A DNA stretch of 64,000 nucleotides from Tetradesmus obliquus (lineage: Eukaryota > Chlorophyta > Chlorophyceae > Sphaeropleales > Scenedesmaceae), in the NCBI GenBank assembly GCA_030272155.1, contig CP126204.1, positions 2,657,501-2,721,500 of the forward strand, read 5' to 3'. Positions 6,697 through 58,059 of the stretch are shown here, in pieces. The notes under the pieces were generated by a model. It saw only the letters and a list, made by a program, of their open reading frames with translations. It was not told the DNA's origin and ran no database searches. A program made the position numbers and the translations under genes. The stretch's first letter is position 1. Every line of letters starts with the position of its first letter.

Positions 6697-7419
6697 CAGC
6701 TAGGTATGGTACAAACGTAGCATCTGCATTTTGCAACAAATCAACACAGCTTGCAAGCAGACAGCCATGCTGGCATAGCAACCTGCTGTATGTGGCAGGC
6801 ACAGTAAGGCACAGCTGCCAGTGCTGCTGCTTTGGTTTGCTTGCATCCCAGTTGCACAGCAGGGCCCTCACCTGCCAGCAGCAGCAGCTCCAAACTGCTA
6901 GTGATTTTGAGCTCCAGAATTCGCCTTGATCACACAGCATGGATGTTTGCAGGAAACTGTGTAGAATACTAGTACTCAACAAACTCTGTGCAGCCACACT
7001 AGCTGCACGCGCGCAGCAGCTGCCGGTGGGCCTGAAGCGGTGTTGCGCAGTATGTAACAGATATGACAGTTGAAACTGTATGTGCAGCGCACAGCGCCAA
7101 GCAGCAGAGCGCAACAGCAGCGGCAGGGCACTTGGCACACCAGAACTGCAGTGCCTGATCAGCCAGCAAGGGAAGCCCAGAAGTATTACAATACACATCA
7201 AAACATGTTGCAGGCAGCAGCACCCACAGCAACACTCTACAGCGCAAGTTAACATATGTAACAGCCGAGTCGGGGCACTTCAGGGCAACGTGTTTTCAGC
7301 ACTTTTCTTGCAGCACACTGTGCCACTGCTAACAGCTCAAATTGATTTAGATTCGTCGTTGAAAGCTTGACATTTATATGTAGGCCACTTGTTCGCTACG
7401 TTTGTACCATGCCCAGCTG
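6697..7419. repeat. M element copy 1 (723 bp, terminal inverted repeats)
   Basis: M starts CAGCTAGGTATGG and ends with the inverse of CAGCTGGGCATGG. The ~25-bp terminal inverted repeats share the 16-bp inner part ATGGTACAAACGTAGC and differ at two positions. M carries no convincing coding region, so by itself it looks like a non-autonomous, MITE-like transposon. Its internal sequence is CAG/CTG-rich. Its own mobility is suggested by the unit in which it is cleanly absent (19537-19539). Because it flanks each core as a direct repeat it also acts as the homology that can expand or contract the array. Confidence 0.75.
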
Positions 7420-7527
7420 AGACCGGTCAAACTCCATGATGCTGCATGCTGTTGTTTGACCTGACCAGTTACTTCTGTTCACACTGCTGCTAGAAGCACA
7501 GCTAACATATCCATATGTTTTGGATTC

Positions 7528-9731
7528 ATGCCTGCAGGGGGGCTGTCCATGGTGCGCAGGCACCCTTCGGGATGGAAGAGCAACCGCAGTACCACGGCCA
7601 TGAGGGTGGCGGCGGTGGTGTGTGTGATAATGGCTTTGACCACCGCTGACGAAAAGATTACCCCCGCATACTATTACAGAGAGCAGTACCCTGACTACGC
7701 CAAGGAGGTACACGGGGACCTGAACCGGTTCTGCAGACTTCATCACAAGAACTTCACAGCAAACGGCACAGTGGCTACACCCAAGCATGGCGGCAGGCCC
7801 TCAAATGTCCCACATGCTGTCGCCTTCCATGCCAGCACAATATTCAAGGCTGGCAAGGTGGTAAAGGCCTACCCATCTGCAGATTCAAAGAGAAAGGTTG
7901 ATGTGCACGTGTGGTGGACTTCAATCGAAGTCGCATGTCAGGAAAATGACACACTGCGCCAGCTGTGCACTGACTACAACATCACACCCAAGAGACTGCT
8001 GAAGTACATGAAATGGGCTGACCCCGACCTGGTGCGCAGGAGAATAGATGTGAAGCTGGACTTGACAAAGATACAGAAACAAAGGCGAAAGGCAGCAGCT
8101 GCGGCGCTGTGGCAGAAGTACCAAAGTGACCCCGACATGCTGCAGCGCATATATTTCATTGATGAGTGCAAATTCTGGATGTCAGACCTGGCAGGCGGCT
8201 CCGTCAAGGTCTATTGTGATGCACACGATGAAAACGTGCATGCTGTGCTGCCATGCAAATGGATGCGCAAGGGCAAGGACGCAGAGCCGGTCAAGTTGCA
8301 CTTTGTCTGCGCTGTCAACGCTGTGCACGGGCCCGTCTACTGCAAGTTTGTCACCGGCACAACAGACAACAAGGACCATGCTGGCAACCTCAATGTACCG
8401 TACATGGTGAGTGTGCGCTGCTACTGCGCAGGCGCCTGCCATTGAAAGACATGCCAGCCCTGCTGTACTATGTAGTAACAGTCCCGCAGTGCTTTTTTTA
8501 GTGCTGTAGTGAAGCTGCAGCGCTGCCCGTCCTCTGCTGTGAACATAACAGCAGAGTAACTTGGTGACAGTACAATGACACCACCTGCAGCAGCAAGCTG
8601 GAAACCAATGTGCAAGGATTGGTGCATGTCACATTTGCGCGTGCTCACGCGCAGCACACTGCCCCCTGGCTGCAGCCAGTTGTCATATGCTGCAGCGCAG
8701 AACTCAAAGTCGCGCTCCAGCACCTGCTGCCTGCTGCTGCTGTAATAACCCTTGTCATGACATGAGCCATCAGCTTGAATCAGCATGTTGTGCTGTGCAT
8801 GGAGGAAATCAATCCGCCCATCCCACCAGTCCACTGCTACCTGAGCACACATACTGCTGCTGATGCCTAACCAGTACAGCATGCGCACCAGCTGCTCCTC
8901 GCTTGTGTGCATGTAGCCCATGCATGTGCCAACCATATCAGCCAGCACACATGCACACATCTTGCACTGAAGCGCTGCTGCTGTGGCGACTGCACGCGGC
9001 GCGCAGAACTTGAAGTGCTGCACACATGGCAAGCAACCAGTCAAGCCCCAGAACAATCTCTGCCCCCTCATAGACTTGGTGATGTATCTGACCTTGTCTG
9101 CACTGAGCCTGATGTAGCAGCGTCCCATCGCATCCATCCACACCGCTGCGTTGCGCTCCTGCGCTGCTAACAAGGCTGCGCGCTGCCAATCCGGCAATTC
9201 TTGCACCTGCAGTTGAAGGACAAACCAACCCAGCAGGCCAAGAGCATGACTCAGCTGGAGTTTGTTCACTGCATGATGGAGATCAAAGACATAGCCAACC
9301 AACAGCAGGCGCAGCGCGGCACTACGCCGCTGTACATCTTTGACAACCCAAGTGTTCACCTGGGGAAGGATGGCCTACAGATGTTAGTTGCAGGCGGCAT
9401 CAATGAAGATCAACTGCTGCACATTGCACCCTACTCCCCAGATTTCAACAAGCCCATTGAACATGCATTTGGCAGCCTCAAAGCAGCCTTCCGCAACTAC
9501 TTGTATAACAGCTGCCAGCTGGGTGGTGCTGATGTGAAGCCGCGAGACCTGCAGCACGGCCTGAACAACACCTTCATGAAGATCACAGCTGCATCTGTCA
9601 TGGCTGATGTATTGAAGCTGCCAGATTTGTGGAATATGGTGCGCAGTCGTAAGATGAGTCTTTGTGTGTGCCGAGACGGGAAGCAGCGCAGCGGCACTGC
9701 TGGTGACTACCCCAGGAAGGACCAACGCTGA
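7528..9731 (+). CDS. IS630/Tc1/mariner-type DDE transposase, two exons (core 1)
   Basis: Exons are 7528-8406 and 9213-9731. The intron is GT-AG (ATG|GTGAGT ... CACCTGCAG|TTG) and splits in phase 0, giving about 465 aa. It would cut and join transposon ends in the nucleus. Motifs in order: a helix-turn-helix-like region around residues 140-158 (TDYNITPKRL), the first catalytic Asp in YFIDECKFW (D212, E213), the second in YIFDNPSVH (D337, N338), then PYSPDFNKPIEHAF with the likely catalytic E376. The D-N-x-x-H and P-Y-S-P-x-x-N-x-I-E signatures are those of the DDE_3 fold. D337 and E376 are 38 residues apart; the first interval is longer than usual. The true start may be later (an acceptor-like CTGCAG follows the ATG, and a Met lies at residue 36), and a strong donor-like GTAAGA at 9648 could give a different C terminus. 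All three acidic residues are present, so it may be active. Confidence 0.8.
8421..9137 (-). CDS. PD-(D/E)XK nuclease-like protein nested antisense in the transposase intron (core 1)
   Basis: The first in-frame ATG is at 9137 and the stop is at 8421, so the 238-aa ORF lies wholly inside the 806-bp transposase intron (8407-9212) on the other strand. The frame stays open upstream to 9359 (312 codons, GTG first), and an acceptor-like CAACTGCAG before 9208 allows an N-terminal extension by splicing. Numbering from the ATG: two C-x2-C knuckles (C35/C38 and C58/C61) suggest a zinc site. A segment RIDFLHAQHNMLIQADGSCH (D110, Q121, D123, H127) and a later RDFEF (R142, D143) and VLRV follow. This is the layout of small restriction-endonuclease-fold proteins (D-F-x-n-E-x-D-G-x-x-H, R-D, V-x-R), with Gln in place of the usual Glu. 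A DNA-cutting role, perhaps helping transposon or intron spread, is inferred only. Codon use and motif order argue against a chance ORF. Confidence 0.5.
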   Translation of the reverse strand: MDAMGRCYIRLSADKVRYITKSMRGQRLFWGLTGCLPCVQHFKFCAPRAVATAAALQCKMCACVLADMVGTCMGYMHTSEEQLVRMLYWLGISSSMCAQVAVDWWDGRIDFLHAQHNMLIQADGSCHDKGYYSSSRQQVLERDFEFCAAAYDNWLQPGGSVLRVSTRKCDMHQSLHIGFQLAAAGGVIVLSPSYSAVMFTAEDGQRCSFTTALKKALRDCYYIVQQGWHVFQWQAPAQ

Positions 9732-10976
9732 GTCTGCTGTTGTGCTGCTGCATGGCATGTTGTGCATGTGGCTGTCAGCTGCATGCAAGATGGCTGGCAG
9801 CAGTGCACAGGCTGACTTTCAGAGAGCCCTTGAGCTCACCTGTTTGAAGGCACCTGCGCTTGCCGCCGTCCTGCATGTTCGCACCGCCCGGGGCTTGGGA
9901 GGTGCTGGCACCATGCTGCTGTAGGGTGGTTACTTCCTGGTGTTCACCTGAGAGCGAGTGTGGGAAGGAAATGGCATGTTCAGAAGCTTATTGTATGAGT
10001 AAACTATATGTGGATGTTGAGCTTTGGTGCTCAGACTTGTCAGGAGTGGTTTCTGCTTTGAACGACTGCTGCCAGGCAGCAAGGCACTTGGTGGCCATTT
10101 CACATACAGGCATTTGCAGTCATGCTGAATTGCCGATTGTAATGGTAAAATGCTTGGTATAATTCAATTACGCTCGTAGCTCTGGAACATGGCTCCTGCT
10201 GCTGTCACTCGCGTTGGTTGTGACAACTGTTGGCCTGCCAAGCGATATGCACGGAGCCTGCAAGAAACATTGCGGTTGATTTTTTTCGATATTTGAAGAT
10301 TGCTTTAAGCATGGCGTGAGCCGAAATAAGCTGCGGTATGGTGAAGAACTTCAAGACGGAATGTGTTGTGAAACAAGCCTGCTCCAGGCCACACAGCTTC
10401 CACGCTGCTCACTTATCAACGTCGACACATTATGTAACTTACCTTTGGTTGAGGTAGAAAACCAACTGCGAAGGGCCCTCGCAAGCCCACCGTGCAGGTG
10501 AGCCTGACGGGTCAACACGGATGTCCAGAGCACTGCAGCTCGATCGTGTTGCTGCAGCACCTGCAAACAATTGGTATTGAACATTAAAAGACGTTAAAAA
10601 CAGCGCTGTGCCGAAAGCCTTCGCCAATAAATTTGGTGGCAGCAGTGAGGCACCTGCTGGCACATGCTGCTGCTGTCACGCCCACCAACGACTGCAGTTG
10701 AAAAACACATGCCACCGTGATTCAAAATACACATAGCTGTAACGTTTCCTGCTGTTTGCTGCTGCTGCTGCTCCTGCCCAGGCAGATATCATGTATTGCA
10801 AACAGCACTACTGCCGCAGTAAAATCAGCTGCATACCCAGCAGCAGCAGGAGCACATCAGCCATAGCATAAAAAGGTAGGTGTGCACTTCAGGCACCAAG
10901 TCCAGGAACAGCAACAGAAGGGATGCAGTGCAGGCTAAGAACTGCTGCAGCAAAGGCTGGCATGCATTTACAGTCT
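9732..10976. other. Downstream part of the core (core 1 as the example)
   Basis: Apart from the antisense RAP-like pieces, this 1.2-kb stretch shows no convincing gene. A TGTAA, the usual green-algal polyadenylation signal, lies at 10138-10142 about 400 bp after the transposase stop. A CTG run lies at 10757-10771 and a mirrored CAG run at 10839-10849. The same content recurs at each core. Confidence 0.4.
10164..10560 (-). pseudogene. Antisense two-exon RAP-domain-like fragment (core 1; repeated in all cores)
   Basis: Two minus-strand pieces, 10443-10560 and 10164-10257, are bounded by strong splice signals (acceptor TTGTTTGCAG, donor AAAG|GTAAGT, acceptor TTTCTTGCAG) and join in frame to a TGA. 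The first piece reads ALDIRVDPSGSPARWACEG then PSQLVFYLNQ. This is close to the RAP pattern (V-D-I-A ... A-x-E-x-D-G-P-S-H-F-x-x-N) found at the ends of organelle RNA-binding OPR proteins that are plentiful in green algae. Some key residues differ and no upstream exon or helical repeats were found, so it is probably a captured or decayed host gene piece rather than a working gene. Equivalent positions: 14444-14840, 18724-19120, 22284-22680, 26564-26960, 30844-31240, 35124-35520, 39404-39800, 43684-44080, 47964-48360, 52244-52640, 56524-56920. Confidence 0.35.
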
Positions 10977-11699
10977 CAGCTAGGTATGGTACAAACGTAG
11001 CATCTGCATTTTGCAACAAATCAACACAGCTTGCAAGCAGACAGCCATGCTGGCATAGCAACCTGCTGTATGTGGCAGGCACAGTAAGGCACAGCTGCCA
11101 GTGCTGCTGCTTTGGTTTGCTTGCATCCCAGTTGCACAGCAGGGCCCTCACCTGCCAGCAGCAGCAGCTCCAAACTGCTAGTGATTTTGAGCTCCAGAAT
11201 TCGCCTTGATCACACAGCATGGATGTTTGCAGGAAACTGTGTAGAATACTAGTACTCAACAAACTCTGTGCAGCCACACTAGCTGCACGCGCGCAGCAGC
11301 TGCCGGTGGGCCTGAAGCGGTGTTGCGCAGTATGTAACAGATATGACAGTTGAAACTGTATGTGCAGCGCACAGCGCCAAGCAGCAGAGCGCAACAGCAG
11401 CGGCAGGGCACTTGGCACACCAGAACTGCAGTGCCTGATCAGCCAGCAAGGGAAGCCCAGAAGTATTACAATACACATCAAAACATGTTGCAGGCAGCAG
11501 CACCCACAGCAACACTCTACAGCGCAAGTTAACATATGTAACAGCCGAGTCGGGGCACTTCAGGGCAACGTGTTTTCAGCACTTTTCTTGCAGCACACTG
11601 TGCCACTGCTAACAGCTCAAATTGATTTAGATTCGTCGTTGAAAGCTTGACATTTATATGTAGGCCACTTGTTCGCTACGTTTGTACCATGCCCAGCTG
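10977..11699. repeat. M element copy 2
   Basis: It lies between cores 1 and 2, with flanks TCT and AGA. Confidence 0.75.
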
Positions 11700-11807
11700 A
11701 GACCGGTCAAACTCCATGATGCTGCATGCTGTTGTTTGACCTGACCAGTTACTTCTGTTCACACTGCTGCTAGAAGCACAGCTAACATATCCATATGTTT
11801 TGGATTC

Positions 11808-14011
11808 ATGCCTGCAGGGGGGCTGTCCATGGTGCGCAGGCACCCTTCGGGATGGAAGAGCAACCGCAGTACCACAGCCATGAGGGTGGCGGCGGTGGTG
11901 TGTGTGATAATGGCTTTGACCACCGCTGACGAAAAGATTACCCCCGCATACTATTACAGAGAGCAGTACCCTGACTACGCCAAGGAGGTACACGGGGACC
12001 TGAACCGGTTCTGCAGACTTCATCACAAGAACTTCACAGCAAACGGCACAGTGGCTACACCCAAGCATGGCGGCAGGCCCTCAAATGTCCCACATGCTGT
12101 CGCCTTCCATGCCAGCACAATATTCAAGGCTGGCAAGGTGGTAAAGGCCTACCCATCTGCAGATTCAAAGAGAAAGGTTGATGTGCACGTGTGGTGGACT
12201 TCAATCGAAGTCGCATGTCAGGAAAATGACACACTGCGCCAGCTGTGCACTGACTACAACATCACACCCAAGAGACTGCTGAAGTACATGAAATGGGCTG
12301 ACCCCGACCTGGTGCGCAGGAGAATAGATGTGAAGCTGGACTTGACAAAGATACAGAAACAAAGGCGAAAGGCAGCAGCTGCGGCGCTGTGGCAGAAGTA
12401 CCAAAGTGACCCCGACATGCTGCAGCGCATATATTTCATTGATGAGTGCAAATTCTGGATGTCAGACCTGGCAGGCGGCTCCGTCAAGGTCTATTGTGAT
12501 GCACACGATGAAAACGTGCATGCTGTGCTGCCATGCAAATGGATGCGCAAGGGCAAGGACGCAGAGCCGGTCAAGTTGCACTTTGTCTGCGCTGTCAACG
12601 CTGTGCACGGGCCCGTCTACGGCAAGTTTGTCACCGGCACAACAGACAACAAGGACCATGCTGGCAACCTCAATGTACCGTACATGGTGAGTGTGCGCTG
12701 CTACTGCGCAGGCGCCTGCCATTGAAAGACATGCCAGCCCTGCTGTACTATGTAGTAACAGTCCCGCAGTGCTTTTTTTAGTGCTGTAGTGAAGCTGCAG
12801 CGCTGCCCGTCCTCTGCTGTGAACATAACAGCAGAGTAACTTGGTGACAGTACAATGACACCACCTGCAGCAGCAAGCTGGAAACCAATGTGCAAGGATT
12901 GGTGCATGTCACATTTGCGCGTGCTCACGCGCAGCACACTGCCCCCTGGCTGCAGCCAGTTGTCATATGCTGCAGCGCAGAACTCAAAGTCGCGCTCCAG
13001 CACCTGCTGCCTGCTGCTGCTGTAATAACCCTTGTCATGACATGAGCCATCAGCTTGAATCAGCATGTTGTGCTGTGCATGGAGGAAATCAATCCGCCCA
13101 TCCCACCAGTCCACTGCTACCTGAGCACACATACTGCTGCTGATGCCTAACCAGTACAGCATGCGCACCAGCTGCTCCTCGCTTGTGTGCATGTAGCCCA
13201 TGCATGTGCCAACCATATCAGCCAGCACACATGCACACATCTTGCACTGAAGCGCTGCTGCTGTGGCGACTGCACGCGGCGCGCAGAACTTGAAGTGCTG
13301 CACACATGGCAAGCAACCAGTCAAGCCCCAGAACAATCTCTGCCCCCTCATAGACTTGGTGATGTATCTGACCTTGTCTGCACTGAGCCTGATGTAGCAG
13401 CGTCCCATCGCATCCATCCACACCGCTGCGTTGCGCTCCTGCGCTGCTAACAAGGCTGCGCGCTGCCAATCCGGCAATTCTTGCACCTGCAGTTGAAGGA
13501 CAAACCAACCCAGCAGGCCAAGAGCATGACTCAGCTGGAGTTTGTTCACTGCATGATGGAGATCAAAGACATAGCCAACCAACAGCAGGCGCAGCGCGGC
13601 ACTACGCCGCTGTACATCTTTGACAACCCAAGTGTTCACCTGGGGAAGGATGGCCTACAGATGTTAGTTGCAGGCGGCATCAATGAAGATCAACTGCTGC
13701 ACATTGCACCCTACTCCCCAGATTTCAACAAGCCCATTGAACATGCATTTGGCAGCCTCAAAGCAGCCTTCCGCAACTACTTGTATAACAGCTGCCAGCT
13801 GGGTGGTGCTGATGTGAAGCCGCGAGACCTGCAGCACGGCCTGAACAACACCTTCATGAAGATCACAGCTGCATCTGTCATGGCTGATGTATTGAAGCTG
13901 CCAGATTTGTGGAATATGGTGCGCAGTCGTAAGATGAGTCTTTGTGTGTGCCGAGACGGGAAGCAGCGCAGCGGCACTGCTGGTGACTACCCCAGGAAGG
14001 ACCAACGCTGA
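11808..14011 (+). CDS. DDE transposase, core 2 (variant B)
   Basis: Exons are 11808-12686 and 13493-14011. It differs from core 1 by a silent change at 11876 and by T-to-G at 12621, which replaces Cys272 with Gly between the first and second catalytic Asp. The catalytic residues are unchanged. Confidence 0.8.
12701..13417 (-). CDS. Nested nuclease-like ORF, core 2
   Basis: Same 238-aa product as core 1; neither variant B substitution falls in it. Confidence 0.5.
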   Translation of the reverse strand: MDAMGRCYIRLSADKVRYITKSMRGQRLFWGLTGCLPCVQHFKFCAPRAVATAAALQCKMCACVLADMVGTCMGYMHTSEEQLVRMLYWLGISSSMCAQVAVDWWDGRIDFLHAQHNMLIQADGSCHDKGYYSSSRQQVLERDFEFCAAAYDNWLQPGGSVLRVSTRKCDMHQSLHIGFQLAAAGGVIVLSPSYSAVMFTAEDGQRCSFTTALKKALRDCYYIVQQGWHVFQWQAPAQ

Positions 14012-15256
14012 GTCTGCTGTTGTGCTGCTGCATGGCATGTTGTGCATGTGGCTGTCAGCTGCATGCAAGATGGCTGGCAGCAGTGCACAGGCTGACTTTC
14101 AGAGAGCCCTTGAGCTCACCTGTTTGAAGGCACCTGCGCTTGCCGCCGTCCTGCATGTTCGCACCGCCCGGGGCTTGGGAGGTGCTGGCACCATGCTGCT
14201 GTAGGGTGGTTACTTCCTGGTGTTCACCTGAGAGCGAGTGTGGGAAGGAAATGGCATGTTCAGAAGCTTATTGTATGAGTAAACTATATGTGGATGTTGA
14301 GCTTTGGTGCTCAGACTTGTCAGGAGTGGTTTCTGCTTTGAACGACTGCTGCCAGGCAGCAAGGCACTTGGTGGCCATTTCACATACAGGCATTTGCAGT
14401 CATGCTGAATTGCCGATTGTAATGGTAAAATGCTTGGTATAATTCAATTACGCTCGTAGCTCTGGAACATGGCTCCTGCTGCTGTCACTCGCGTTGGTTG
14501 TGACAACTGTTGGCCTGCCAAGCGATATGCACGGAGCCTGCAAGAAACATTGCGGTTGATTTTTTTCGATATTTGAAGATTGCTTTAAGCATGGCGTGAG
14601 CCGAAATAAGCTGCGGTATGGTGAAGAACTTCAAGACGGAATGTGTTGTGAAACAAGCCTGCTCCAGGCCACACAGCTTCCACGCTGCTCACTTATCAAC
14701 GTCGACACATTATGTAACTTACCTTTGGTTGAGGTAGAAAACCAACTGCGAAGGGCCCTCGCAAGCCCACCGTGCAGGTGAGCCTGACGGGTCAACACGG
14801 ATGTCCAGAGCACTGCAGCTCGATCGTGTTGCTGCAGCACCTGCAAACAATTGGTATTGAACATTAAAAGACGTTAAAAACAGCGCTGTGCCGAAAGCCT
14901 TCGCCAATAAATTTGGTGGCAGCAGTGAGGCACCTGCTGGCACATGCTGCTGCTGTCACGCCCACCAACGACTGCAGTTGAAAAACACATGCCACCGTGA
15001 TTCAAAATACACATAGCTGTAACGTTTCCTGCTGTTTGCTGCTGCTGCTGCTCCTGCCCAGGCAGATATCATGTATTGCAAACAGCACTACTGCCGCAGT
15101 AAAATCAGCTGCATACCCAGCAGCAGCAGGAGCACATCAGCCATAGCATAAAAAGGTAGGTGTGCACTTCAGGCACCAAGTCCAGGAACAGCAACAGAAG
15201 GGATGCAGTGCAGGCTAAGAACTGCTGCAGCAAAGGCTGGCATGCATTTACAGTCT

Positions 15257-15979
15257 CAGCTAGGTATGGTACAAACGTAGCATCTGCATTTTGCAACAAA
15301 TCAACACAGCTTGCAAGCAGACAGCCATGCTGGCATAGCAACCTGCTGTATGTGGCAGGCACAGTAAGGCACAGCTGCCAGTGCTGCTGCTTTGGTTTGC
15401 TTGCATCCCAGTTGCACAGCAGGGCCCTCACCTGCCAGCAGCAGCAGCTCCAAACTGCTAGTGATTTTGAGCTCCAGAATTCGCCTTGATCACACAGCAT
15501 GGATGTTTGCAGGAAACTGTGTAGAATACTAGTACTCAACAAACTCTGTGCAGCCACACTAGCTGCACGCGCGCAGCAGCTGCCGGTGGGCCTGAAGCGG
15601 TGTTGCGCAGTATGTAACAGATATGACAGTTGAAACTGTATGTGCAGCGCACAGCGCCAAGCAGCAGAGCGCAACAGCAGCGGCAGGGCACTTGGCACAC
15701 CAGAACTGCAGTGCCTGATCAGCCAGCAAGGGAAGCCCAGAAGTATTACAATACACATCAAAACATGTTGCAGGCAGCAGCACCCACAGCAACACTCTAC
15801 AGCGCAAGTTAACATATGTAACAGCCGAGTCGGGGCACTTCAGGGCAACGTGTTTTCAGCACTTTTCTTGCAGCACACTGTGCCACTGCTAACAGCTCAA
15901 ATTGATTTAGATTCGTCGTTGAAAGCTTGACATTTATATGTAGGCCACTTGTTCGCTACGTTTGTACCATGCCCAGCTG
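15257..15979. repeat. M element copy 3
   Basis: It lies between cores 2 and 3. Confidence 0.75.
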
Positions 15980-16087
15980 AGACCGGTCAAACTCCATGAT
16001 GCTGCATGCTGTTGTTTGACCTGACCAGTTACTTCTGTTCACACTGCTGCTAGAAGCACAGCTAACATATCCATATGTTTTGGATTC

Positions 16088-18291
16088 ATGCCTGCAGGGG
16101 GGCTGTCCATGGTGCGCAGGCACCCTTCGGGATGGAAGAGCAACCGCAGTACCACGGCCATGAGGGTGGCGGCGGTGGTGTGTGTGATAATGGCTTTGAC
16201 CACCGCTGACGAAAAGATTACCCCCGCATACTATTACAGAGAGCAGTACCCTGACTACGCCAAGGAGGTACACGGGGACCTGAACCGGTTCTGCAGACTT
16301 CATCACAAGAACTTCACAGCAAACGGCACAGTGGCTACACCCAAGCATGGCGGCAGGCCCTCAAATGTCCCACATGCTGTCGCCTTCCATGCCAGCACAA
16401 TATTCAAGGCTGGCAAGGTGGTAAAGGCCTACCCATCTGCAGATTCAAAGAGAAAGGTTGATGTGCACGTGTGGTGGACTTCAATCGAAGTCGCATGTCA
16501 GGAAAATGACACACTGCGCCAGCTGTGCACTGACTACAACATCACACCCAAGAGACTGCTGAAGTACATGAAATGGGCTGACCCCGACCTGGTGCGCAGG
16601 AGAATAGATGTGAAGCTGGACTTGACAAAGATACAGAAACAAAGGCGAAAGGCAGCAGCTGCGGCGCTGTGGCAGAAGTACCAAAGTGACCCCGACATGC
16701 TGCAGCGCATATATTTCATTGATGAGTGCAAATTCTGGATGTCAGACCTGGCAGGCGGCTCCGTCAAGGTCTATTGTGATGCACACGATGAAAACGTGCA
16801 TGCTGTGCTGCCATGCAAATGGATGCGCAAGGGCAAGGACGCAGAGCCGGTCAAGTTGCACTTTGTCTGCGCTGTCAACGCTGTGCACGGGCCCGTCTAC
16901 TGCAAGTTTGTCACCGGCACAACAGACAACAAGGACCATGCTGGCAACCTCAATGTACCGTACATGGTGAGTGTGCGCTGCTACTGCGCAGGCGCCTGCC
17001 ATTGAAAGACATGCCAGCCCTGCTGTACTATGTAGTAACAGTCCCGCAGTGCTTTTTTTAGTGCTGTAGTGAAGCTGCAGCGCTGCCCGTCCTCTGCTGT
17101 GAACATAACAGCAGAGTAACTTGGTGACAGTACAATGACACCACCTGCAGCAGCAAGCTGGAAACCAATGTGCAAGGATTGGTGCATGTCACATTTGCGC
17201 GTGCTCACGCGCAGCACACTGCCCCCTGGCTGCAGCCAGTTGTCATATGCTGCAGCGCAGAACTCAAAGTCGCGCTCCAGCACCTGCTGCCTGCTGCTGC
17301 TGTAATAACCCTTGTCATGACATGAGCCATCAGCTTGAATCAGCATGTTGTGCTGTGCATGGAGGAAATCAATCCGCCCATCCCACCAGTCCACTGCTAC
17401 CTGAGCACACATACTGCTGCTGATGCCTAACCAGTACAGCATGCGCACCAGCTGCTCCTCGCTTGTGTGCATGTAGCCCATGCATGTGCCAACCATATCA
17501 GCCAGCACACATGCACACATCTTGCACTGAAGCGCTGCTGCTGTGGCGACTGCACGCGGCGCGCAGAACTTGAAGTGCTGCACACATGGCAAGCAACCAG
17601 TCAAGCCCCAGAACAATCTCTGCCCCCTCATAGACTTGGTGATGTATCTGACCTTGTCTGCACTGAGCCTGATGTAGCAGCGTCCCATCGCATCCATCCA
17701 CACCGCTGCGTTGCGCTCCTGCGCTGCTAACAAGGCTGCGCGCTGCCAATCCGGCAATTCTTGCACCTGCAGTTGAAGGACAAACCAACCCAGCAGGCCA
17801 AGAGCATGACTCAGCTGGAGTTTGTTCACTGCATGATGGAGATCAAAGACATAGCCAACCAACAGCAGGCGCAGCGCGGCACTACGCCGCTGTACATCTT
17901 TGACAACCCAAGTGTTCACCTGGGGAAGGATGGCCTACAGATGTTAGTTGCAGGCGGCATCAATGAAGATCAACTGCTGCACATTGCACCCTACTCCCCA
18001 GATTTCAACAAGCCCATTGAACATGCATTTGGCAGCCTCAAAGCAGCCTTCCGCAACTACTTGTATAACAGCTGCCAGCTGGGTGGTGCTGATGTGAAGC
18101 CGCGAGACCTGCAGCACGGCCTGAACAACACCTTCATGAAGATCACAGCTGCATCTGTCATGGCTGATGTATTGAAGCTGCCAGATTTGTGGAATATGGT
18201 GCGCAGTCGTAAGATGAGTCTTTGTGTGTGCCGAGACGGGAAGCAGCGCAGCGGCACTGCTGGTGACTACCCCAGGAAGGACCAACGCTGA
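16088..18291 (+). CDS. DDE transposase, core 3
   Basis: Exons are 16088-16966 and 17773-18291. The protein is identical to that of core 1. Confidence 0.8.
16981..17697 (-). CDS. Nested nuclease-like ORF, core 3
   Basis: Same product as core 1, inside intron 16967-17772. Confidence 0.5.
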   Translation of the reverse strand: MDAMGRCYIRLSADKVRYITKSMRGQRLFWGLTGCLPCVQHFKFCAPRAVATAAALQCKMCACVLADMVGTCMGYMHTSEEQLVRMLYWLGISSSMCAQVAVDWWDGRIDFLHAQHNMLIQADGSCHDKGYYSSSRQQVLERDFEFCAAAYDNWLQPGGSVLRVSTRKCDMHQSLHIGFQLAAAGGVIVLSPSYSAVMFTAEDGQRCSFTTALKKALRDCYYIVQQGWHVFQWQAPAQ

Positions 18292-19536: not shown

Positions 19537-19539
19537 CTG
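19537..19539. other. CTG remnant at a vacant M site
   Basis: Cores 3 and 4 abut here with only CTG between the usual flanks (…CAGTCT and AGACCGG…). Exactly 720 of the 723 bp of M are absent, and CTG equals the terminal three bases of the M right end. Tc1/mariner-type excision commonly leaves 2-3 terminal bases of the transposon, so this is best read as an excision footprint. Confidence 0.7.
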
Positions 19540-19647
19540 AGACCGGTCAAACTCCATGATGCTGCATGCTGTTGTTTGACCTGACCAGTTACTTCTGTTC
19601 ACACTGCTGCTAGAAGCACAGCTAACATATCCATATGTTTTGGATTC

Positions 19648-45219: not shown

Positions 45220-45327
45220 AGACCGGTCAAACTCCATGATGCTGCATGCTGTTGTTTGACCTGACCAGTTACTTCTGTTCACACTGCTGCTAGAAGCACA
45301 GCTAACATATCCATATGTTTTGGATTC

Positions 45328-47531: not shown

Positions 47532-48776
47532 GTCTGCTGTTGTGCTGCTGCATGGCATGTTGTGCATGTGGCTGTCAGCTGCATGCAAGATGGCTGGCAG
47601 CAGTGCACAGGCTGACTTTCAGAGAGCCCTTGAGCTCACCTGTTTGAAGGCACCTGCGCTTGCCGCCGTCCTGCATGTTCGCACCGCCCGGGGCTTGGGA
47701 GGTGCTGGCACCATGCTGCTGTAGGGTGGTTACTTCCTGGTGTTCACCTGAGAGCGAGTGTGGGAAGGAAATGGCATGTTCAGAAGCTTATTGTATGAGT
47801 AAACTATATGTGGATGTTGAGCTTTGGTGCTCAGACTTGTCAGGAGTGGTTTCTGCTTTGAACGACTGCTGCCAGGCAGCAAGGCACTTGGTGGCCATTT
47901 CACATACAGGCATTTGCAGTCATGCTGAATTGCCGATTGTAATGGTAAAATGCTTGGTATAATTCAATTACGCTCGTAGCTCTGGAACATGGCTCCTGCT
48001 GCTGTCACTCGCGTTGGTTGTGACAACTGTTGGCCTGCCAAGCGATATGCACGGAGCCTGCAAGAAACATTGCGGTTGATTTTTTTCGATATTTGAAGAT
48101 TGCTTTAAGCATGGCGTGAGCCGAAATAAGCTGCGGTATGGTGAAGAACTTCAAGACGGAATGTGTTGTGAAACAAGCCTGCTCCAGGCCACACAGCTTC
48201 CACGCTGCTCACTTATCAACGTCGACACATTATGTAACTTACCTTTGGTTGAGGTAGAAAACCAACTGCGAAGGGCCCTCGCAAGCCCACCGTGCAGGTG
48301 AGCCTGACGGGTCAACACGGATGTCCAGAGCACTGCAGCTCGATCGTGTTGCTGCAGCACCTGCAAACAATTGGTATTGAACATTAAAAGACGTTAAAAA
48401 CAGCGCTGTGCCGAAAGCCTTCGCCAATAAATTTGGTGGCAGCAGTGAGGCACCTGCTGGCACATGCTGCTGCTGTCACGCCCACCAACGACTGCAGTTG
48501 AAAAACACATGCCACCGTGATTCAAAATACACATAGCTGTAACGTTTCCTGCTGTTTGCTGCTGCTGCTGCTCCTGCCCAGGCAGATATCATGTATTGCA
48601 AACAGCACTACTGCCGCAGTAAAATCAGCTGCATACCCAGCAGCAGCAGGAGCACATCAGCCATAGCATAAAAAGGTAGGTGTGCACTTCAGGCACCAAG
48701 TCCAGGAACAGCAACAGAAGGGATGCAGTGCAGGCTAAGAACTGCTGCAGCAAAGGCTGGCATGCATTTACAGTCT

Positions 48777-49499
48777 CAGCTAGGTATGGTACAAACGTAG
48801 CATCTGCATTTTGCAACAAATCAACACAGCTTGCAAGCAGACAGCCATGCTGGCATAGCAACCTGCTGTATGTGGCAGGCACAGTAAGGCACAGCTGCCA
48901 GTGCTGCTGCTTTGGTTTGCTTGCATCCCAGTTGCACAGCAGGGCCCTCACCTGCCAGCAGCAGCAGCTCCAAACTGCTAGTGATTTTGAGCTCCAGAAT
49001 TCGCCTTGATCACACAGCATGGATGTTTGCAGGAAACTGTGTAGAATACTAGTACTCAACAAACTCTGTGCAGCCACACTAGCTGCACGCGCGCAGCAGC
49101 TGCCGGTGGGCCTGAAGCGGTGTTGCGCAGTATGTAACAGATATGACAGTTGAAACTGTATGTGCAGCGCACAGCGCCAAGCAGCAGAGCGCAACAGCAG
49201 CGGCAGGGCACTTGGCACACCAGAACTGCAGTGCCTGATCAGCCAGCAAGGGAAGCCCAGAAGTATTACAATACACATCAAAACATGTTGCAGGCAGCAG
49301 CACCCACAGCAACACTCTACAGCGCAAGTTAACATATGTAACAGCCGAGTCGGGGCACTTCAGGGCAACGTGTTTTCAGCACTTTTCTTGCAGCACACTG
49401 TGCCACTGCTAACAGCTCAAATTGATTTAGATTCGTCGTTGAAAGCTTGACATTTATATGTAGGCCACTTGTTCGCTACGTTTGTACCATGCCCAGCTG
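48777..49499. repeat. M element copy 10
   Basis: It lies between cores 10 and 11. Confidence 0.75.
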
Positions 49500-49607
49500 A
49501 GACCGGTCAAACTCCATGATGCTGCATGCTGTTGTTTGACCTGACCAGTTACTTCTGTTCACACTGCTGCTAGAAGCACAGCTAACATATCCATATGTTT
49601 TGGATTC

Positions 49608-51811
49608 ATGCCTGCAGGGGGGCTGTCCATGGTGCGCAGGCACCCTTCGGGATGGAAGAGCAACCGCAGTACCACGGCCATGAGGGTGGCGGCGGTGGTG
49701 TGTGTGATAATGGCTTTGACCACCGCTGACGAAAAGATTACCCCCGCATACTATTACAGAGAGCAGTACCCTGACTACGCCAAGGAGGTACACGGGGACC
49801 TGAACCGGTTCTGCAGACTTCATCACAAGAACTTCACAGCAAACGGCACAGTGGCTACACCCAAGCATGGCGGCAGGCCCTCAAATGTCCCACATGCTGT
49901 CGCCTTCCATGCCAGCACAATATTCAAGGCTGGCAAGGTGGTAAAGGCCTACCCATCTGCAGATTCAAAGAGAAAGGTTGATGTGCACGTGTGGTGGACT
50001 TCAATCGAAGTCGCATGTCAGGAAAATGACACACTGCGCCAGCTGTGCACTGACTACAACATCACACCCAAGAGACTGCTGAAGTACATGAAATGGGCTG
50101 ACCCCGACCTGGTGCGCAGGAGAATAGATGTGAAGCTGGACTTGACAAAGATACAGAAACAAAGGCGAAAGGCAGCAGCTGCGGCGCTGTGGCAGAAGTA
50201 CCAAAGTGACCCCGACATGCTGCAGCGCATATATTTCATTGATGAGTGCAAATTCTGGATGTCAGACCTGGCAGGCGGCTCCGTCAAGGTCTATTGTGAT
50301 GCACACGATGAAAACGTGCATGCTGTGCTGCCATGCAAATGGATGCGCAAGGGCAAGGACGCAGAGCCGGTCAAGTTGCACTTTGTCTGCGCTGTCAACG
50401 CTGTGCACGGGCCCGTCTACTGCAAGTTTGTCACCGGCACAACAGACAACAAGGACCATGCTGGCAACCTCAATGTACCGTACATGGTGAGTGTGCGCTG
50501 CTACTGCGCAGGCGCCTGCCATTGAAAGACATGCCAGCCCTGCTGTACTATGTAGTAACAGTCCCGCAGTGCTTTTTTTAGTGCTGTAGTGAAGCTGCAG
50601 CGCTGCCCGTCCTCTGCTGTGAACATAACAGCAGAGTAACTTGGTGACAGTACAATGACACCACCTGCAGCAGCAAGCTGGAAACCAATGTGCAAGGATT
50701 GGTGCATGTCACATTTGCGCGTGCTCACGCGCAGCACACTGCCCCCTGGCTGCAGCCAGTTGTCATATGCTGCAGCGCAGAACTCAAAGTCGCGCTCCAG
50801 CACCTGCTGCCTGCTGCTGCTGTAATAACCCTTGTCATGACATGAGCCATCAGCTTGAATCAGCATGTTGTGCTGTGCATGGAGGAAATCAATCCGCCCA
50901 TCCCACCAGTCCACTGCTACCTGAGCACACATACTGCTGCTGATGCCTAACCAGTACAGCATGCGCACCAGCTGCTCCTCGCTTGTGTGCATGTAGCCCA
51001 TGCATGTGCCAACCATATCAGCCAGCACACATGCACACATCTTGCACTGAAGCGCTGCTGCTGTGGCGACTGCACGCGGCGCGCAGAACTTGAAGTGCTG
51101 CACACATGGCAAGCAACCAGTCAAGCCCCAGAACAATCTCTGCCCCCTCATAGACTTGGTGATGTATCTGACCTTGTCTGCACTGAGCCTGATGTAGCAG
51201 CGTCCCATCGCATCCATCCACACCGCTGCGTTGCGCTCCTGCGCTGCTAACAAGGCTGCGCGCTGCCAATCCGGCAATTCTTGCACCTGCAGTTGAAGGA
51301 CAAACCAACCCAGCAGGCCAAGAGCATGACTCAGCTGGAGTTTGTTCACTGCATGATGGAGATCAAAGACATAGCCAACCAACAGCAGGCGCAGCGCGGC
51401 ACTACGCCGCTGTACATCTTTGACAACCCAAGTGTTCACCTGGGGAAGGATGGCCTACAGATGTTAGTTGCAGGCGGCATCAATGAAGATCAACTGCTGC
51501 ACATTGCACCCTACTCCCCAGATTTCAACAAGCCCATTGAACATGCATTTGGCAGCCTCAAAGCAGCCTTCCGCAACTACTTGTATAACAGCTGCCAGCT
51601 GGGTGGTGCTGATGTGAAGCCGCGAGACCTGCAGCACGGCCTGAACAACACCTTCATGAAGATCACAGCTGCATCTGTCATGGCTGATGTATTGAAGCTG
51701 CCAGATTTGTGGAATATGGTGCGCAGTCGTAAGATGAGTCTTTGTGTGTGCCGAGACGGGAAGCAGCGCAGCGGCACTGCTGGTGACTACCCCAGGAAGG
51801 ACCAACGCTGA
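49608..51811 (+). CDS. DDE transposase, core 11
   Basis: Exons are 49608-50486 and 51293-51811; same product as core 1. Confidence 0.8.
50501..51217 (-). CDS. Nested nuclease-like ORF, core 11
   Basis: Same product as core 1, inside intron 50487-51292. Confidence 0.5.
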   Translation of the reverse strand: MDAMGRCYIRLSADKVRYITKSMRGQRLFWGLTGCLPCVQHFKFCAPRAVATAAALQCKMCACVLADMVGTCMGYMHTSEEQLVRMLYWLGISSSMCAQVAVDWWDGRIDFLHAQHNMLIQADGSCHDKGYYSSSRQQVLERDFEFCAAAYDNWLQPGGSVLRVSTRKCDMHQSLHIGFQLAAAGGVIVLSPSYSAVMFTAEDGQRCSFTTALKKALRDCYYIVQQGWHVFQWQAPAQ

Positions 51812-53056
51812 GTCTGCTGTTGTGCTGCTGCATGGCATGTTGTGCATGTGGCTGTCAGCTGCATGCAAGATGGCTGGCAGCAGTGCACAGGCTGACTTTC
51901 AGAGAGCCCTTGAGCTCACCTGTTTGAAGGCACCTGCGCTTGCCGCCGTCCTGCATGTTCGCACCGCCCGGGGCTTGGGAGGTGCTGGCACCATGCTGCT
52001 GTAGGGTGGTTACTTCCTGGTGTTCACCTGAGAGCGAGTGTGGGAAGGAAATGGCATGTTCAGAAGCTTATTGTATGAGTAAACTATATGTGGATGTTGA
52101 GCTTTGGTGCTCAGACTTGTCAGGAGTGGTTTCTGCTTTGAACGACTGCTGCCAGGCAGCAAGGCACTTGGTGGCCATTTCACATACAGGCATTTGCAGT
52201 CATGCTGAATTGCCGATTGTAATGGTAAAATGCTTGGTATAATTCAATTACGCTCGTAGCTCTGGAACATGGCTCCTGCTGCTGTCACTCGCGTTGGTTG
52301 TGACAACTGTTGGCCTGCCAAGCGATATGCACGGAGCCTGCAAGAAACATTGCGGTTGATTTTTTTCGATATTTGAAGATTGCTTTAAGCATGGCGTGAG
52401 CCGAAATAAGCTGCGGTATGGTGAAGAACTTCAAGACGGAATGTGTTGTGAAACAAGCCTGCTCCAGGCCACACAGCTTCCACGCTGCTCACTTATCAAC
52501 GTCGACACATTATGTAACTTACCTTTGGTTGAGGTAGAAAACCAACTGCGAAGGGCCCTCGCAAGCCCACCGTGCAGGTGAGCCTGACGGGTCAACACGG
52601 ATGTCCAGAGCACTGCAGCTCGATCGTGTTGCTGCAGCACCTGCAAACAATTGGTATTGAACATTAAAAGACGTTAAAAACAGCGCTGTGCCGAAAGCCT
52701 TCGCCAATAAATTTGGTGGCAGCAGTGAGGCACCTGCTGGCACATGCTGCTGCTGTCACGCCCACCAACGACTGCAGTTGAAAAACACATGCCACCGTGA
52801 TTCAAAATACACATAGCTGTAACGTTTCCTGCTGTTTGCTGCTGCTGCTGCTCCTGCCCAGGCAGATATCATGTATTGCAAACAGCACTACTGCCGCAGT
52901 AAAATCAGCTGCATACCCAGCAGCAGCAGGAGCACATCAGCCATAGCATAAAAAGGTAGGTGTGCACTTCAGGCACCAAGTCCAGGAACAGCAACAGAAG
53001 GGATGCAGTGCAGGCTAAGAACTGCTGCAGCAAAGGCTGGCATGCATTTACAGTCT

Positions 53057-53779
53057 CAGCTAGGTATGGTACAAACGTAGCATCTGCATTTTGCAACAAA
53101 TCAACACAGCTTGCAAGCAGACAGCCATGCTGGCATAGCAACCTGCTGTATGTGGCAGGCACAGTAAGGCACAGCTGCCAGTGCTGCTGCTTTGGTTTGC
53201 TTGCATCCCAGTTGCACAGCAGGGCCCTCACCTGCCAGCAGCAGCAGCTCCAAACTGCTAGTGATTTTGAGCTCCAGAATTCGCCTTGATCACACAGCAT
53301 GGATGTTTGCAGGAAACTGTGTAGAATACTAGTACTCAACAAACTCTGTGCAGCCACACTAGCTGCACGCGCGCAGCAGCTGCCGGTGGGCCTGAAGCGG
53401 TGTTGCGCAGTATGTAACAGATATGACAGTTGAAACTGTATGTGCAGCGCACAGCGCCAAGCAGCAGAGCGCAACAGCAGCGGCAGGGCACTTGGCACAC
53501 CAGAACTGCAGTGCCTGATCAGCCAGCAAGGGAAGCCCAGAAGTATTACAATACACATCAAAACATGTTGCAGGCAGCAGCACCCACAGCAACACTCTAC
53601 AGCGCAAGTTAACATATGTAACAGCCGAGTCGGGGCACTTCAGGGCAACGTGTTTTCAGCACTTTTCTTGCAGCACACTGTGCCACTGCTAACAGCTCAA
53701 ATTGATTTAGATTCGTCGTTGAAAGCTTGACATTTATATGTAGGCCACTTGTTCGCTACGTTTGTACCATGCCCAGCTG
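53057..53779. repeat. M element copy 11
   Basis: It lies between cores 11 and 12. Confidence 0.75.
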
Positions 53780-53887
53780 AGACCGGTCAAACTCCATGAT
53801 GCTGCATGCTGTTGTTTGACCTGACCAGTTACTTCTGTTCACACTGCTGCTAGAAGCACAGCTAACATATCCATATGTTTTGGATTC

Positions 53888-56091
53888 ATGCCTGCAGGGG
53901 GGCTGTCCATGGTGCGCAGGCACCCTTCGGGATGGAAGAGCAACCGCAGTACCACAGCCATGAGGGTGGCGGCGGTGGTGTGTGTGATAATGGCTTTGAC
54001 CACCGCTGACGAAAAGATTACCCCCGCATACTATTACAGAGAGCAGTACCCTGACTACGCCAAGGAGGTACACGGGGACCTGAACCGGTTCTGCAGACTT
54101 CATCACAAGAACTTCACAGCAAACGGCACAGTGGCTACACCCAAGCATGGCGGCAGGCCCTCAAATGTCCCACATGCTGTCGCCTTCCATGCCAGCACAA
54201 TATTCAAGGCTGGCAAGGTGGTAAAGGCCTACCCATCTGCAGATTCAAAGAGAAAGGTTGATGTGCACGTGTGGTGGACTTCAATCGAAGTCGCATGTCA
54301 GGAAAATGACACACTGCGCCAGCTGTGCACTGACTACAACATCACACCCAAGAGACTGCTGAAGTACATGAAATGGGCTGACCCCGACCTGGTGCGCAGG
54401 AGAATAGATGTGAAGCTGGACTTGACAAAGATACAGAAACAAAGGCGAAAGGCAGCAGCTGCGGCGCTGTGGCAGAAGTACCAAAGTGACCCCGACATGC
54501 TGCAGCGCATATATTTCATTGATGAGTGCAAATTCTGGATGTCAGACCTGGCAGGCGGCTCCGTCAAGGTCTATTGTGATGCACACGATGAAAACGTGCA
54601 TGCTGTGCTGCCATGCAAATGGATGCGCAAGGGCAAGGACGCAGAGCCGGTCAAGTTGCACTTTGTCTGCGCTGTCAACGCTGTGCACGGGCCCGTCTAC
54701 GGCAAGTTTGTCACCGGCACAACAGACAACAAGGACCATGCTGGCAACCTCAATGTACCGTACATGGTGAGTGTGCGCTGCTACTGCGCAGGCGCCTGCC
54801 ATTGAAAGACATGCCAGCCCTGCTGTACTATGTAGTAACAGTCCCGCAGTGCTTTTTTTAGTGCTGTAGTGAAGCTGCAGCGCTGCCCGTCCTCTGCTGT
54901 GAACATAACAGCAGAGTAACTTGGTGACAGTACAATGACACCACCTGCAGCAGCAAGCTGGAAACCAATGTGCAAGGATTGGTGCATGTCACATTTGCGC
55001 GTGCTCACGCGCAGCACACTGCCCCCTGGCTGCAGCCAGTTGTCATATGCTGCAGCGCAGAACTCAAAGTCGCGCTCCAGCACCTGCTGCCTGCTGCTGC
55101 TGTAATAACCCTTGTCATGACATGAGCCATCAGCTTGAATCAGCATGTTGTGCTGTGCATGGAGGAAATCAATCCGCCCATCCCACCAGTCCACTGCTAC
55201 CTGAGCACACATACTGCTGCTGATGCCTAACCAGTACAGCATGCGCACCAGCTGCTCCTCGCTTGTGTGCATGTAGCCCATGCATGTGCCAACCATATCA
55301 GCCAGCACACATGCACACATCTTGCACTGAAGCGCTGCTGCTGTGGCGACTGCACGCGGCGCGCAGAACTTGAAGTGCTGCACACATGGCAAGCAACCAG
55401 TCAAGCCCCAGAACAATCTCTGCCCCCTCATAGACTTGGTGATGTATCTGACCTTGTCTGCACTGAGCCTGATGTAGCAGCGTCCCATCGCATCCATCCA
55501 CACCGCTGCGTTGCGCTCCTGCGCTGCTAACAAGGCTGCGCGCTGCCAATCCGGCAATTCTTGCACCTGCAGTTGAAGGACAAACCAACCCAGCAGGCCA
55601 AGAGCATGACTCAGCTGGAGTTTGTTCACTGCATGATGGAGATCAAAGACATAGCCAACCAACAGCAGGCGCAGCGCGGCACTACGCCGCTGTACATCTT
55701 TGACAACCCAAGTGTTCACCTGGGGAAGGATGGCCTACAGATGTTAGTTGCAGGCGGCATCAATGAAGATCAACTGCTGCACATTGCACCCTACTCCCCA
55801 GATTTCAACAAGCCCATTGAACATGCATTTGGCAGCCTCAAAGCAGCCTTCCGCAACTACTTGTATAACAGCTGCCAGCTGGGTGGTGCTGATGTGAAGC
55901 CGCGAGACCTGCAGCACGGCCTGAACAACACCTTCATGAAGATCACAGCTGCATCTGTCATGGCTGATGTATTGAAGCTGCCAGATTTGTGGAATATGGT
56001 GCGCAGTCGTAAGATGAGTCTTTGTGTGTGCCGAGACGGGAAGCAGCGCAGCGGCACTGCTGGTGACTACCCCAGGAAGGACCAACGCTGA
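53888..56091 (+). CDS. DDE transposase, core 12 (variant B)
   Basis: Exons are 53888-54766 and 55573-56091. It carries the same two changes as core 2 (silent at 53956, Cys272Gly through 54701). Confidence 0.8.
54781..55497 (-). CDS. Nested nuclease-like ORF, core 12
   Basis: Same product as core 1, inside intron 54767-55572. Confidence 0.5.
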   Translation of the reverse strand: MDAMGRCYIRLSADKVRYITKSMRGQRLFWGLTGCLPCVQHFKFCAPRAVATAAALQCKMCACVLADMVGTCMGYMHTSEEQLVRMLYWLGISSSMCAQVAVDWWDGRIDFLHAQHNMLIQADGSCHDKGYYSSSRQQVLERDFEFCAAAYDNWLQPGGSVLRVSTRKCDMHQSLHIGFQLAAAGGVIVLSPSYSAVMFTAEDGQRCSFTTALKKALRDCYYIVQQGWHVFQWQAPAQ

Positions 56092-57336
56092 GTCTGCTGT
56101 TGTGCTGCTGCATGGCATGTTGTGCATGTGGCTGTCAGCTGCATGCAAGATGGCTGGCAGCAGTGCACAGGCTGACTTTCAGAGAGCCCTTGAGCTCACC
56201 TGTTTGAAGGCACCTGCGCTTGCCGCCGTCCTGCATGTTCGCACCGCCCGGGGCTTGGGAGGTGCTGGCACCATGCTGCTGTAGGGTGGTTACTTCCTGG
56301 TGTTCACCTGAGAGCGAGTGTGGGAAGGAAATGGCATGTTCAGAAGCTTATTGTATGAGTAAACTATATGTGGATGTTGAGCTTTGGTGCTCAGACTTGT
56401 CAGGAGTGGTTTCTGCTTTGAACGACTGCTGCCAGGCAGCAAGGCACTTGGTGGCCATTTCACATACAGGCATTTGCAGTCATGCTGAATTGCCGATTGT
56501 AATGGTAAAATGCTTGGTATAATTCAATTACGCTCGTAGCTCTGGAACATGGCTCCTGCTGCTGTCACTCGCGTTGGTTGTGACAACTGTTGGCCTGCCA
56601 AGCGATATGCACGGAGCCTGCAAGAAACATTGCGGTTGATTTTTTTCGATATTTGAAGATTGCTTTAAGCATGGCGTGAGCCGAAATAAGCTGCGGTATG
56701 GTGAAGAACTTCAAGACGGAATGTGTTGTGAAACAAGCCTGCTCCAGGCCACACAGCTTCCACGCTGCTCACTTATCAACGTCGACACATTATGTAACTT
56801 ACCTTTGGTTGAGGTAGAAAACCAACTGCGAAGGGCCCTCGCAAGCCCACCGTGCAGGTGAGCCTGACGGGTCAACACGGATGTCCAGAGCACTGCAGCT
56901 CGATCGTGTTGCTGCAGCACCTGCAAACAATTGGTATTGAACATTAAAAGACGTTAAAAACAGCGCTGTGCCGAAAGCCTTCGCCAATAAATTTGGTGGC
57001 AGCAGTGAGGCACCTGCTGGCACATGCTGCTGCTGTCACGCCCACCAACGACTGCAGTTGAAAAACACATGCCACCGTGATTCAAAATACACATAGCTGT
57101 AACGTTTCCTGCTGTTTGCTGCTGCTGCTGCTCCTGCCCAGGCAGATATCATGTATTGCAAACAGCACTACTGCCGCAGTAAAATCAGCTGCATACCCAG
57201 CAGCAGCAGGAGCACATCAGCCATAGCATAAAAAGGTAGGTGTGCACTTCAGGCACCAAGTCCAGGAACAGCAACAGAAGGGATGCAGTGCAGGCTAAGA
57301 ACTGCTGCAGCAAAGGCTGGCATGCATTTACAGTCT

Positions 57337-58059
57337 CAGCTAGGTATGGTACAAACGTAGCATCTGCATTTTGCAACAAATCAACACAGCTTGCAAGCAG
57401 ACAGCCATGCTGGCATAGCAACCTGCTGTATGTGGCAGGCACAGTAAGGCACAGCTGCCAGTGCTGCTGCTTTGGTTTGCTTGCATCCCAGTTGCACAGC
57501 AGGGCCCTCACCTGCCAGCAGCAGCAGCTCCAAACTGCTAGTGATTTTGAGCTCCAGAATTCGCCTTGATCACACAGCATGGATGTTTGCAGGAAACTGT
57601 GTAGAATACTAGTACTCAACAAACTCTGTGCAGCCACACTAGCTGCACGCGCGCAGCAGCTGCCGGTGGGCCTGAAGCGGTGTTGCGCAGTATGTAACAG
57701 ATATGACAGTTGAAACTGTATGTGCAGCGCACAGCGCCAAGCAGCAGAGCGCAACAGCAGCGGCAGGGCACTTGGCACACCAGAACTGCAGTGCCTGATC
57801 AGCCAGCAAGGGAAGCCCAGAAGTATTACAATACACATCAAAACATGTTGCAGGCAGCAGCACCCACAGCAACACTCTACAGCGCAAGTTAACATATGTA
57901 ACAGCCGAGTCGGGGCACTTCAGGGCAACGTGTTTTCAGCACTTTTCTTGCAGCACACTGTGCCACTGCTAACAGCTCAAATTGATTTAGATTCGTCGTT
58001 GAAAGCTTGACATTTATATGTAGGCCACTTGTTCGCTACGTTTGTACCATGCCCAGCTG
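57337..58059. repeat. M element copy 12 (right end of array)
   Basis: This copy closes the array. After its last base the sequence leaves the repeat (AATACAGG instead of AGACCGG). Confidence 0.75.

Follow-up and report, generated by a model that had tools for sequence, protein, structure and literature searches.

A uniform head-to-tail array of transposase-bearing cores and a 723-bp inverted-repeat element in Tetradesmus obliquus

Introduction

Tandem arrays derived from transposons are known, as are macrotransposons of cut-and-paste elements; an array as uniform and as oddly built as the one described here for the green alga Tetradesmus obliquus is unusual. The question raised by this locus is how a transposase gene came to be repeated head to tail between copies of a short element that carries terminal inverted repeats (TIRs). 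The stretch analysed, hereafter the window, comprises 64,000 nucleotides (assembly GCA_030272155.1, contig CP126204.1, positions 2,657,501 to 2,721,500 of the forward strand) and contains no N bases. Among the titles and beginnings of abstracts of the open-licence literature, no array of such build was found.

Array layout and number of units

The array occupies positions 6697-58059 of the window and consists of two alternating segments, a core and a TIR element designated M, arranged head-to-tail as M-core-M-core-...-M with an M at both termini. Its length is fully accounted for by the components listed below (12 x 3,557 bp of core, 12 x 723 bp of M and 3 bp, in total 51,363 bp).

6697-7419, forward strand: M copy 1, left end of the array, exact copy, TIRs CAGCT...AGCTG
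7420-10976, forward strand: core 1, reference core, 3,557 bp
10977-11699, forward strand: M copy 2, exact copy
11700-15256, forward strand: core 2, variant (177 G>A, 922 T>G)
15257-15979, forward strand: M copy 3, exact copy
15980-19536, forward strand: core 3, identical to core 1
19537-19539, forward strand: CTG in place of M between cores 3 and 4, resembling an excision scar
19540-23096, forward strand: core 4, identical to core 1
23097-23819, forward strand: M copy 4, exact copy
23820-27376, forward strand: core 5, identical to core 1
27377-28099, forward strand: M copy 5, exact copy
28100-31656, forward strand: core 6, identical to core 1
31657-32379, forward strand: M copy 6, exact copy
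32380-35936, forward strand: core 7, identical to core 1
35937-36659, forward strand: M copy 7, exact copy
36660-40216, forward strand: core 8, identical to core 1
40217-40939, forward strand: M copy 8, exact copy
40940-44496, forward strand: core 9, identical to core 1
44497-45219, forward strand: M copy 9, exact copy
45220-48776, forward strand: core 10, identical to core 1
48777-49499, forward strand: M copy 10, exact copy
49500-53056, forward strand: core 11, identical to core 1
53057-53779, forward strand: M copy 11, exact copy
53780-57336, forward strand: core 12, variant as in core 2
57337-58059, forward strand: M copy 12, right end of the array, exact copy

A preliminary description of this DNA had reported twelve cores alternating with a 723-bp TIR element at 6697-58059, and these coordinates proved exact. 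The strict 4,280-bp period given there holds elsewhere in the array but not between cores 3 and 4, where CTG replaces M and the spacing is 3,560 bp. The near absence of divergence that it noted can now be put in figures: ten of the twelve cores are identical (nine of the eleven others equal core 1), and exactly two sites vary across the cores, both of them in cores 2 and 12 and in no other, while M is identical in 12 of 12 copies. The substitution at core position 177 (G>A, ACG to ACA) is synonymous at T23, and that at position 922 (T>G, TGC to GGC) produces C272G in the transposase ORF. Unit-to-unit alignments gave 99.95-100% identity, and at such length and identity a chance origin is not at issue. 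The array was missed by Tandem Repeats Finder because the longest period handled by this program is 500 bp.

The array opens and closes with the same 9,283 bp of sequence (the alignment extends to 9,285 bp, with one matching flanking base on each side). Because variation is close to zero and the ends are identical, either the growth or homogenisation of the array is very recent or the array is partly a product of assembly. Very recent amplification or upkeep of uniformity, as proposed earlier, is supported by the presence of only two variable sites in twelve cores and none in twelve copies of M.

The count of twelve is insecure, and it is the weakest point of what can be said about the array from sequence alone. 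The markers along it are spaced, from left to right, by 5,179, 745, 6,916, 34,419, 745, and 3,358 bp; the count is insecure because the 34,419 bp between the M-less junction and the first variant of core 12 carry no marker and follow a perfect 4,280-bp periodicity. With this spacing, ordinary long reads suffice to check the array on its left side and at its right end, but not across the 34.4-kb block. It is thus conceivable, although rather unlikely in our judgment, that the locus is real but small (e.g. five to seven units) and that the number twelve was generated during assembly of unmarked repeats. Reads shorter than 34,419 bp cannot count units within the unmarked block, and identical array ends of 9,283 bp with the same variant core could mislead an assembler. 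On the other hand, no gap between the markers of the left part (boundary, core-2 variants, and M-less junction) is larger than 6,916 bp, and on the right the distance is 3,358 bp; provided that the assembly is collinear, these markers make cores 1, 2, 3, 4, and 12 distinct and fix a minimum of five units.

Flanking sequence

The array is flanked on the left by an exon of a class 3 lipase (3816-4232, reverse strand, E 2.2e-18) and on the right by a subtilase gene (E 3.2e-24). Broken reading frames suggest introns, which points to eukaryotic DNA, and base composition, CAG tracts and the style of the genes hint at a green alga. Further to the left, at 373-2064 on the reverse strand, two ORFs of 221 and 272 aa with no visible introns were observed. 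The former scored just above the cut-off of the Pfam family Glyco_hydro_134 (29.5 bits vs 27) and the latter had no Pfam match; in viral contigs, 2 stretches matched one of two left-flank ORFs and 0 the other, none confirmed, and the structure predicted for a left-flank ORF was too poor to use (mean pLDDT 41.6). The right flank contains a 40-bp direct repeat (61095-61134 and 62458-62497, 92.5% identity), possibly representing the ends of another repeat element, and GCA/AGC/CTG triplet tracts at 58166-58195, 58785-58851, 59560-59618, and 62828-62898, some of them in or beside coding sequence.

The core and its transposase-like gene

Two reading frames on opposite strands are predicted in each core, given here for core 1:

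7528-9731, forward strand: transposase-like gene of core 1, 465 aa, splice sites and translation predicted; also in the 11 other cores
8421-9359, reverse strand: ORF of 312 codons, antisense to the intron and to the first part of exon 2; also in the 11 other cores

The gene structure was predicted from genomic sequence rather than from RNA and comprises exon 1 (7528-8406), an intron of 806 bp with GT-AG borders (8407-9212), and exon 2 (9213-9731). The 465-aa protein matched Pfam DDE_3 with an E value of 5.2e-5 (23.6 bits, under the cut-off of 28.6) and the IS630 model NF033545 of NCBIfam with an E value of 2.5e-4 (20.6 bits, under the cut-off of 100). Exon 2 alone gave an E value of 4.9e-5 with DDE_3, and exon 1 alone had no match in Pfam or NCBIfam. 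Residues D212, D337, and E376, the last two separated by 38 residues, were picked by eye from known motifs as a candidate DD(E/D) triad. Membership of a DDE_3/IS630-like transposase family is likely though not secured.

Searches for relatives in viral contigs, genome contigs, phages, and plasmids, collections without general coverage of eukaryotes, confirmed none. In phage sequences the transposase had a single weak match (E 0.8, 43% across some 51 residues); one stretch of viral contigs matched the 465-aa protein, and genome contigs, compared with exon 2 only, gave 40 matching stretches, none of these confirmed. A TIR pattern had 0 matches in viral contigs. The transposase retrieved two irrelevant matches among solved structures (E 0.58 and 1.7), Rfam returned 0 matches, ARAGORN 0 genes (bacterial code), and PHROGs nothing useful.

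The preliminary description spoke of near-identical transposon units and of a dozen apparently intact transposase genes. The genes bear this out, both predicted exon ORFs being open in 12 of 12 cores. As for the term transposon unit, the unit does include a transposase-bearing core but falls short of a complete element: it is M that carries the TIRs, and the core lacks strong ones of its own, none having been found among the 25 longest of 40 pairs in an inverted-repeat search of a unit. A piece flanked by TIRs and containing a transposase must comprise at least M-core-M. Because the transposase ORF starts 108 bp after M, its promoter may lie in M.

The antisense ORF contains a stop-free run of 263 codons across the intron, a length that was reached by 8 of 5000 intron samples drawn from a first-order Markov model. 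Its composition by codon position in the intron part (0.57, 0.46, 0.64) is similar to that of exon 1 (0.54, 0.42, 0.67). Three lengths of this ORF were compared with Pfam DUF559, yielding E values of 0.071, 0.093, and 0.036 (13.0-14.4 bits, under the cut-off of 20.6). It is possible that this ORF represents a nested nuclease-like gene, a suggestion offered only as a lead. It had no match in NCBIfam or, up to an E value of 1, among solved structures; part of it was searched in phages and plasmids with no match in either, and the one stretch of viral contigs that matched was not confirmed. The predicted structure was too poor to use (mean pLDDT 34.4).

Element M and its flanks

M is 723 bp long and has 25-bp TIRs with two mismatches, starting CAGCT; its ends read CAGCTAGGTATGGTACAAACGTAGC and the reverse complement of CAGCTGGGCATGGTACAAACGTAGC. 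The inner 17 bases of the TIR, with up to three mismatches allowed, occur at 24 places across the window (0.08 expected), all of them in M and two in each copy. Among the 25 longest of 40 inverted-repeat pairs, all those of 25-29 nt at 92-93% involve the ends of M, and no other pair longer than 22 nt exceeds 76%. M has features of MITE-like elements, namely TIRs, short length (723 bp), and no capacity to encode a transposase; the sole ORF touching it (236 aa, antisense) straddles M and the core and has no Pfam match up to an E value of 1. The idea that M might derive by internal deletion from an element with the core as its middle part was rejected, as the core lies outside the ends of M; the inverted-repeat listing shows no long similarity between M and the core either.

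The sequences bordering the outermost ends are a candidate target duplication:

6694-6696, forward strand: left flank AAT, candidate 3-bp target duplication
58060-58062, forward strand: right flank AAT, candidate 3-bp target duplication

At these outer flanks a direct repeat occurs at length 3 only (lengths 2-11 tried), with a chance of 1 in 64 for a 3-bp direct repeat. The inner flanks of M read GTCT/AGAC and give no direct repeat at lengths 2-8. A TA target duplication is absent from both the outer (AAT/AAT) and the inner (GTCT/AGAC) flanks. Both contexts read T-M-A, and an insertion between T and A without duplication is conceivable. It was also observed that GTCT/AGAC (10973-10976, 11700-11703, and equivalents) extends the repeat of M by four exact bases inside the array and not at its outer ends; with these bases, contributed by the core ends, the inverted repeat inside the array reaches 29 nt.

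The M-less junction between cores 3 and 4

The junction between cores 3 and 4 reads GTCT-CTG-AGAC. Relative to the other junctions 720 bp are missing, and the deletion ends within 3 bp of both ends of M. The CTG can be read as the last three bases of M or as its first base followed by its last two, and it looks like an excision scar of M. Such a junction would be expected if the cut fell a little inward of the element end and the broken ends were then joined; Sleeping Beauty excision is reported to leave a 3-base remnant of the element end, CAG, in this way (PMC8151067). The excision event, if such it was, postdates the presence of at least two cores with M between them. M is taken as mobile because of this excision-type scar, a single event, and we infer that it is a small non-autonomous mobile element.

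An immobile M was also considered, with the junction representing either a plain deletion or the joint by which cores were originally linked, and the 4,280-bp segment a satellite-like repeat unit. M is absent at one junction only, GTCT-CTG-AGAC gives no direct repeat, and satellites derived from transposons with such units have been reviewed (PMC6947457). We nevertheless consider an immobile M very improbable: each end of the missing 720 bp lies no more than 3 bp from an end of M, M possesses 25-bp TIRs with two mismatches, and the array begins and stops exactly at ends of M.

Proposed origin of the array

Our confidence is evenly divided on the proposal that a transposase gene became trapped among copies of a small mobile element, probably one that its product moves, and that this arrangement was recently amplified by homologous exchange or insertion of a circle. 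In such a scenario an M would have sat at a chromosomal AAT site, and elsewhere two M insertions would once have flanked the core; recombination between these two would, most likely, have yielded a core-M circle. The circle, or a multimer of it, could then have integrated into the M of the AAT site by homologous recombination, and unequal exchange or rolling-circle copying may have raised the number of units and kept them uniform. The transposase encoded in the core probably acts on the ends of M, and one M would have been excised after the array had formed, leaving CTG.

In favor of this proposal, M forms both borders of the array, and each core has M or the CTG scar next to it on either side. 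The match of the 720-bp loss to M, the DDE_3 and IS630 matches with the candidate triad, the strong inverted repeats found at the ends of M, and the two variable sites in twelve cores against none in M count on the same side. Inner flanks without direct repeats next to outer AAT/AAT would be expected because the inner copies would be recombinants of two insertions and the outer pair would belong to one. Several observations argue against it. The exact 4-base GTCT/AGAC inverted repeat could arise only by chance (1 in 256) under the two-insertion model, a plain 720-bp deletion at cores 3/4 is also conceivable, the mobility of M is deduced from one scar, and the two substitutions shared by cores 2 and 12 need an extra exchange step. 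In addition, the outer AAT match has a 1 in 64 chance with lengths 2-11 tried, the DDE_3 and IS630 scores lie under the curated cut-offs, and no TA duplication is present at the outer ends; IS630-Tc1-mariner (ITm) transposons usually duplicate TA.

The main alternative is transposition of reversed ends during replication, by which paired ends of neighbouring M copies followed by re-replication or rolling-circle copying would give tandem M-core, the whole M...M block behaving as a macrotransposon flanked by duplicated AAT. For Ac/Ds of maize, transposition of reversed ends is described as producing tandem direct duplications and composite insertions with competent ends and target duplications (PMC4270019). 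The competent-looking outer ends of M, the AAT on both sides, and the presence of M at 10 of 11 inner junctions agree with such an origin. However, the maize cases consist of few repeats with truncated ends, whereas the units of the array are all complete, no truncated M or core having been found in it, and the conjectured action of a transposase on M would again be required. We regard this route as unlikely. The GTCT/AGAC inverted repeat is explained neither by the circle model nor by reversed-ends transposition.

Comparison with known systems

The array resembles ITm elements (Sleeping Beauty, Intruder DD38E) in its weak DDE_3/IS630 signal and in inverted repeats starting CAG. The 3-base scar recalls Sleeping Beauty, whose own is CAG (PMC8151067), and the spacing of 38 residues in the second half of the candidate triad recalls the family name of Intruder, DD38E (PMC7731502), an agreement that does not establish kinship. 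In contrast to ITm elements, the transposase gene of the array lies between copies of a 723-bp TIR element and not inside one TIR pair, there is no outer TA duplication, an 806-bp intron is predicted, and the matches are under curated cut-offs.

Composite insertions of maize Ac/Ds share with the array tandem segments that a transposon separates and whose outer borders are transposon ends; their target duplication would have its counterpart in the candidate AAT of the array. Among them, bz1-m4-D6856, with three tandem repeats separated by Ds, has been reinterpreted as a product of reversed-ends transposition (PMC4270019). In maize the repeats are few, in part truncated, and made of host flanking DNA, whereas the array has up to twelve complete transposase-carrying units. 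Satellites derived from MITEs and helitrons are similar in their head-to-tail amplification, for which unequal exchange is the usual explanation (PMC6947457), but they consist of decayed monomers, while the units of the array measure 4.28 kb, carry open transposase ORFs, and are 99.95-100% identical. Mariner elements of algal viruses are reported to carry accessory endonuclease genes, so that a transposase and a second, nuclease-like gene occur in the same element (PMC3627910); they are bounded by TA and their own TIRs, whereas the second ORF of the array is antisense in a predicted intron and has a weak DUF559 match.

Biological meaning

The arrangement might be seen as an inside-out composite transposon, in which two non-autonomous M elements flank their own transposase gene, the reverse of the bacterial type, and the tandem array would be a self-amplifying store of transposase and of M substrates. 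M would probably bring the promoter, and each excision of M, as between cores 3 and 4, would silence the next gene. We hold this interpretation to be speculative and unlikely to be correct. In mice, Sleeping Beauty donor sites with multiple copies are reported to show raised transposition (PMC3271037).

If confirmed, this locus would offer a natural example of transposase genes being amplified together with their substrates at one place, with scars inside the array as a record of excision. The array could then serve to measure how cut-and-paste transposons become tandem arrays and, in addition, to test whether such arrays raise transposition.
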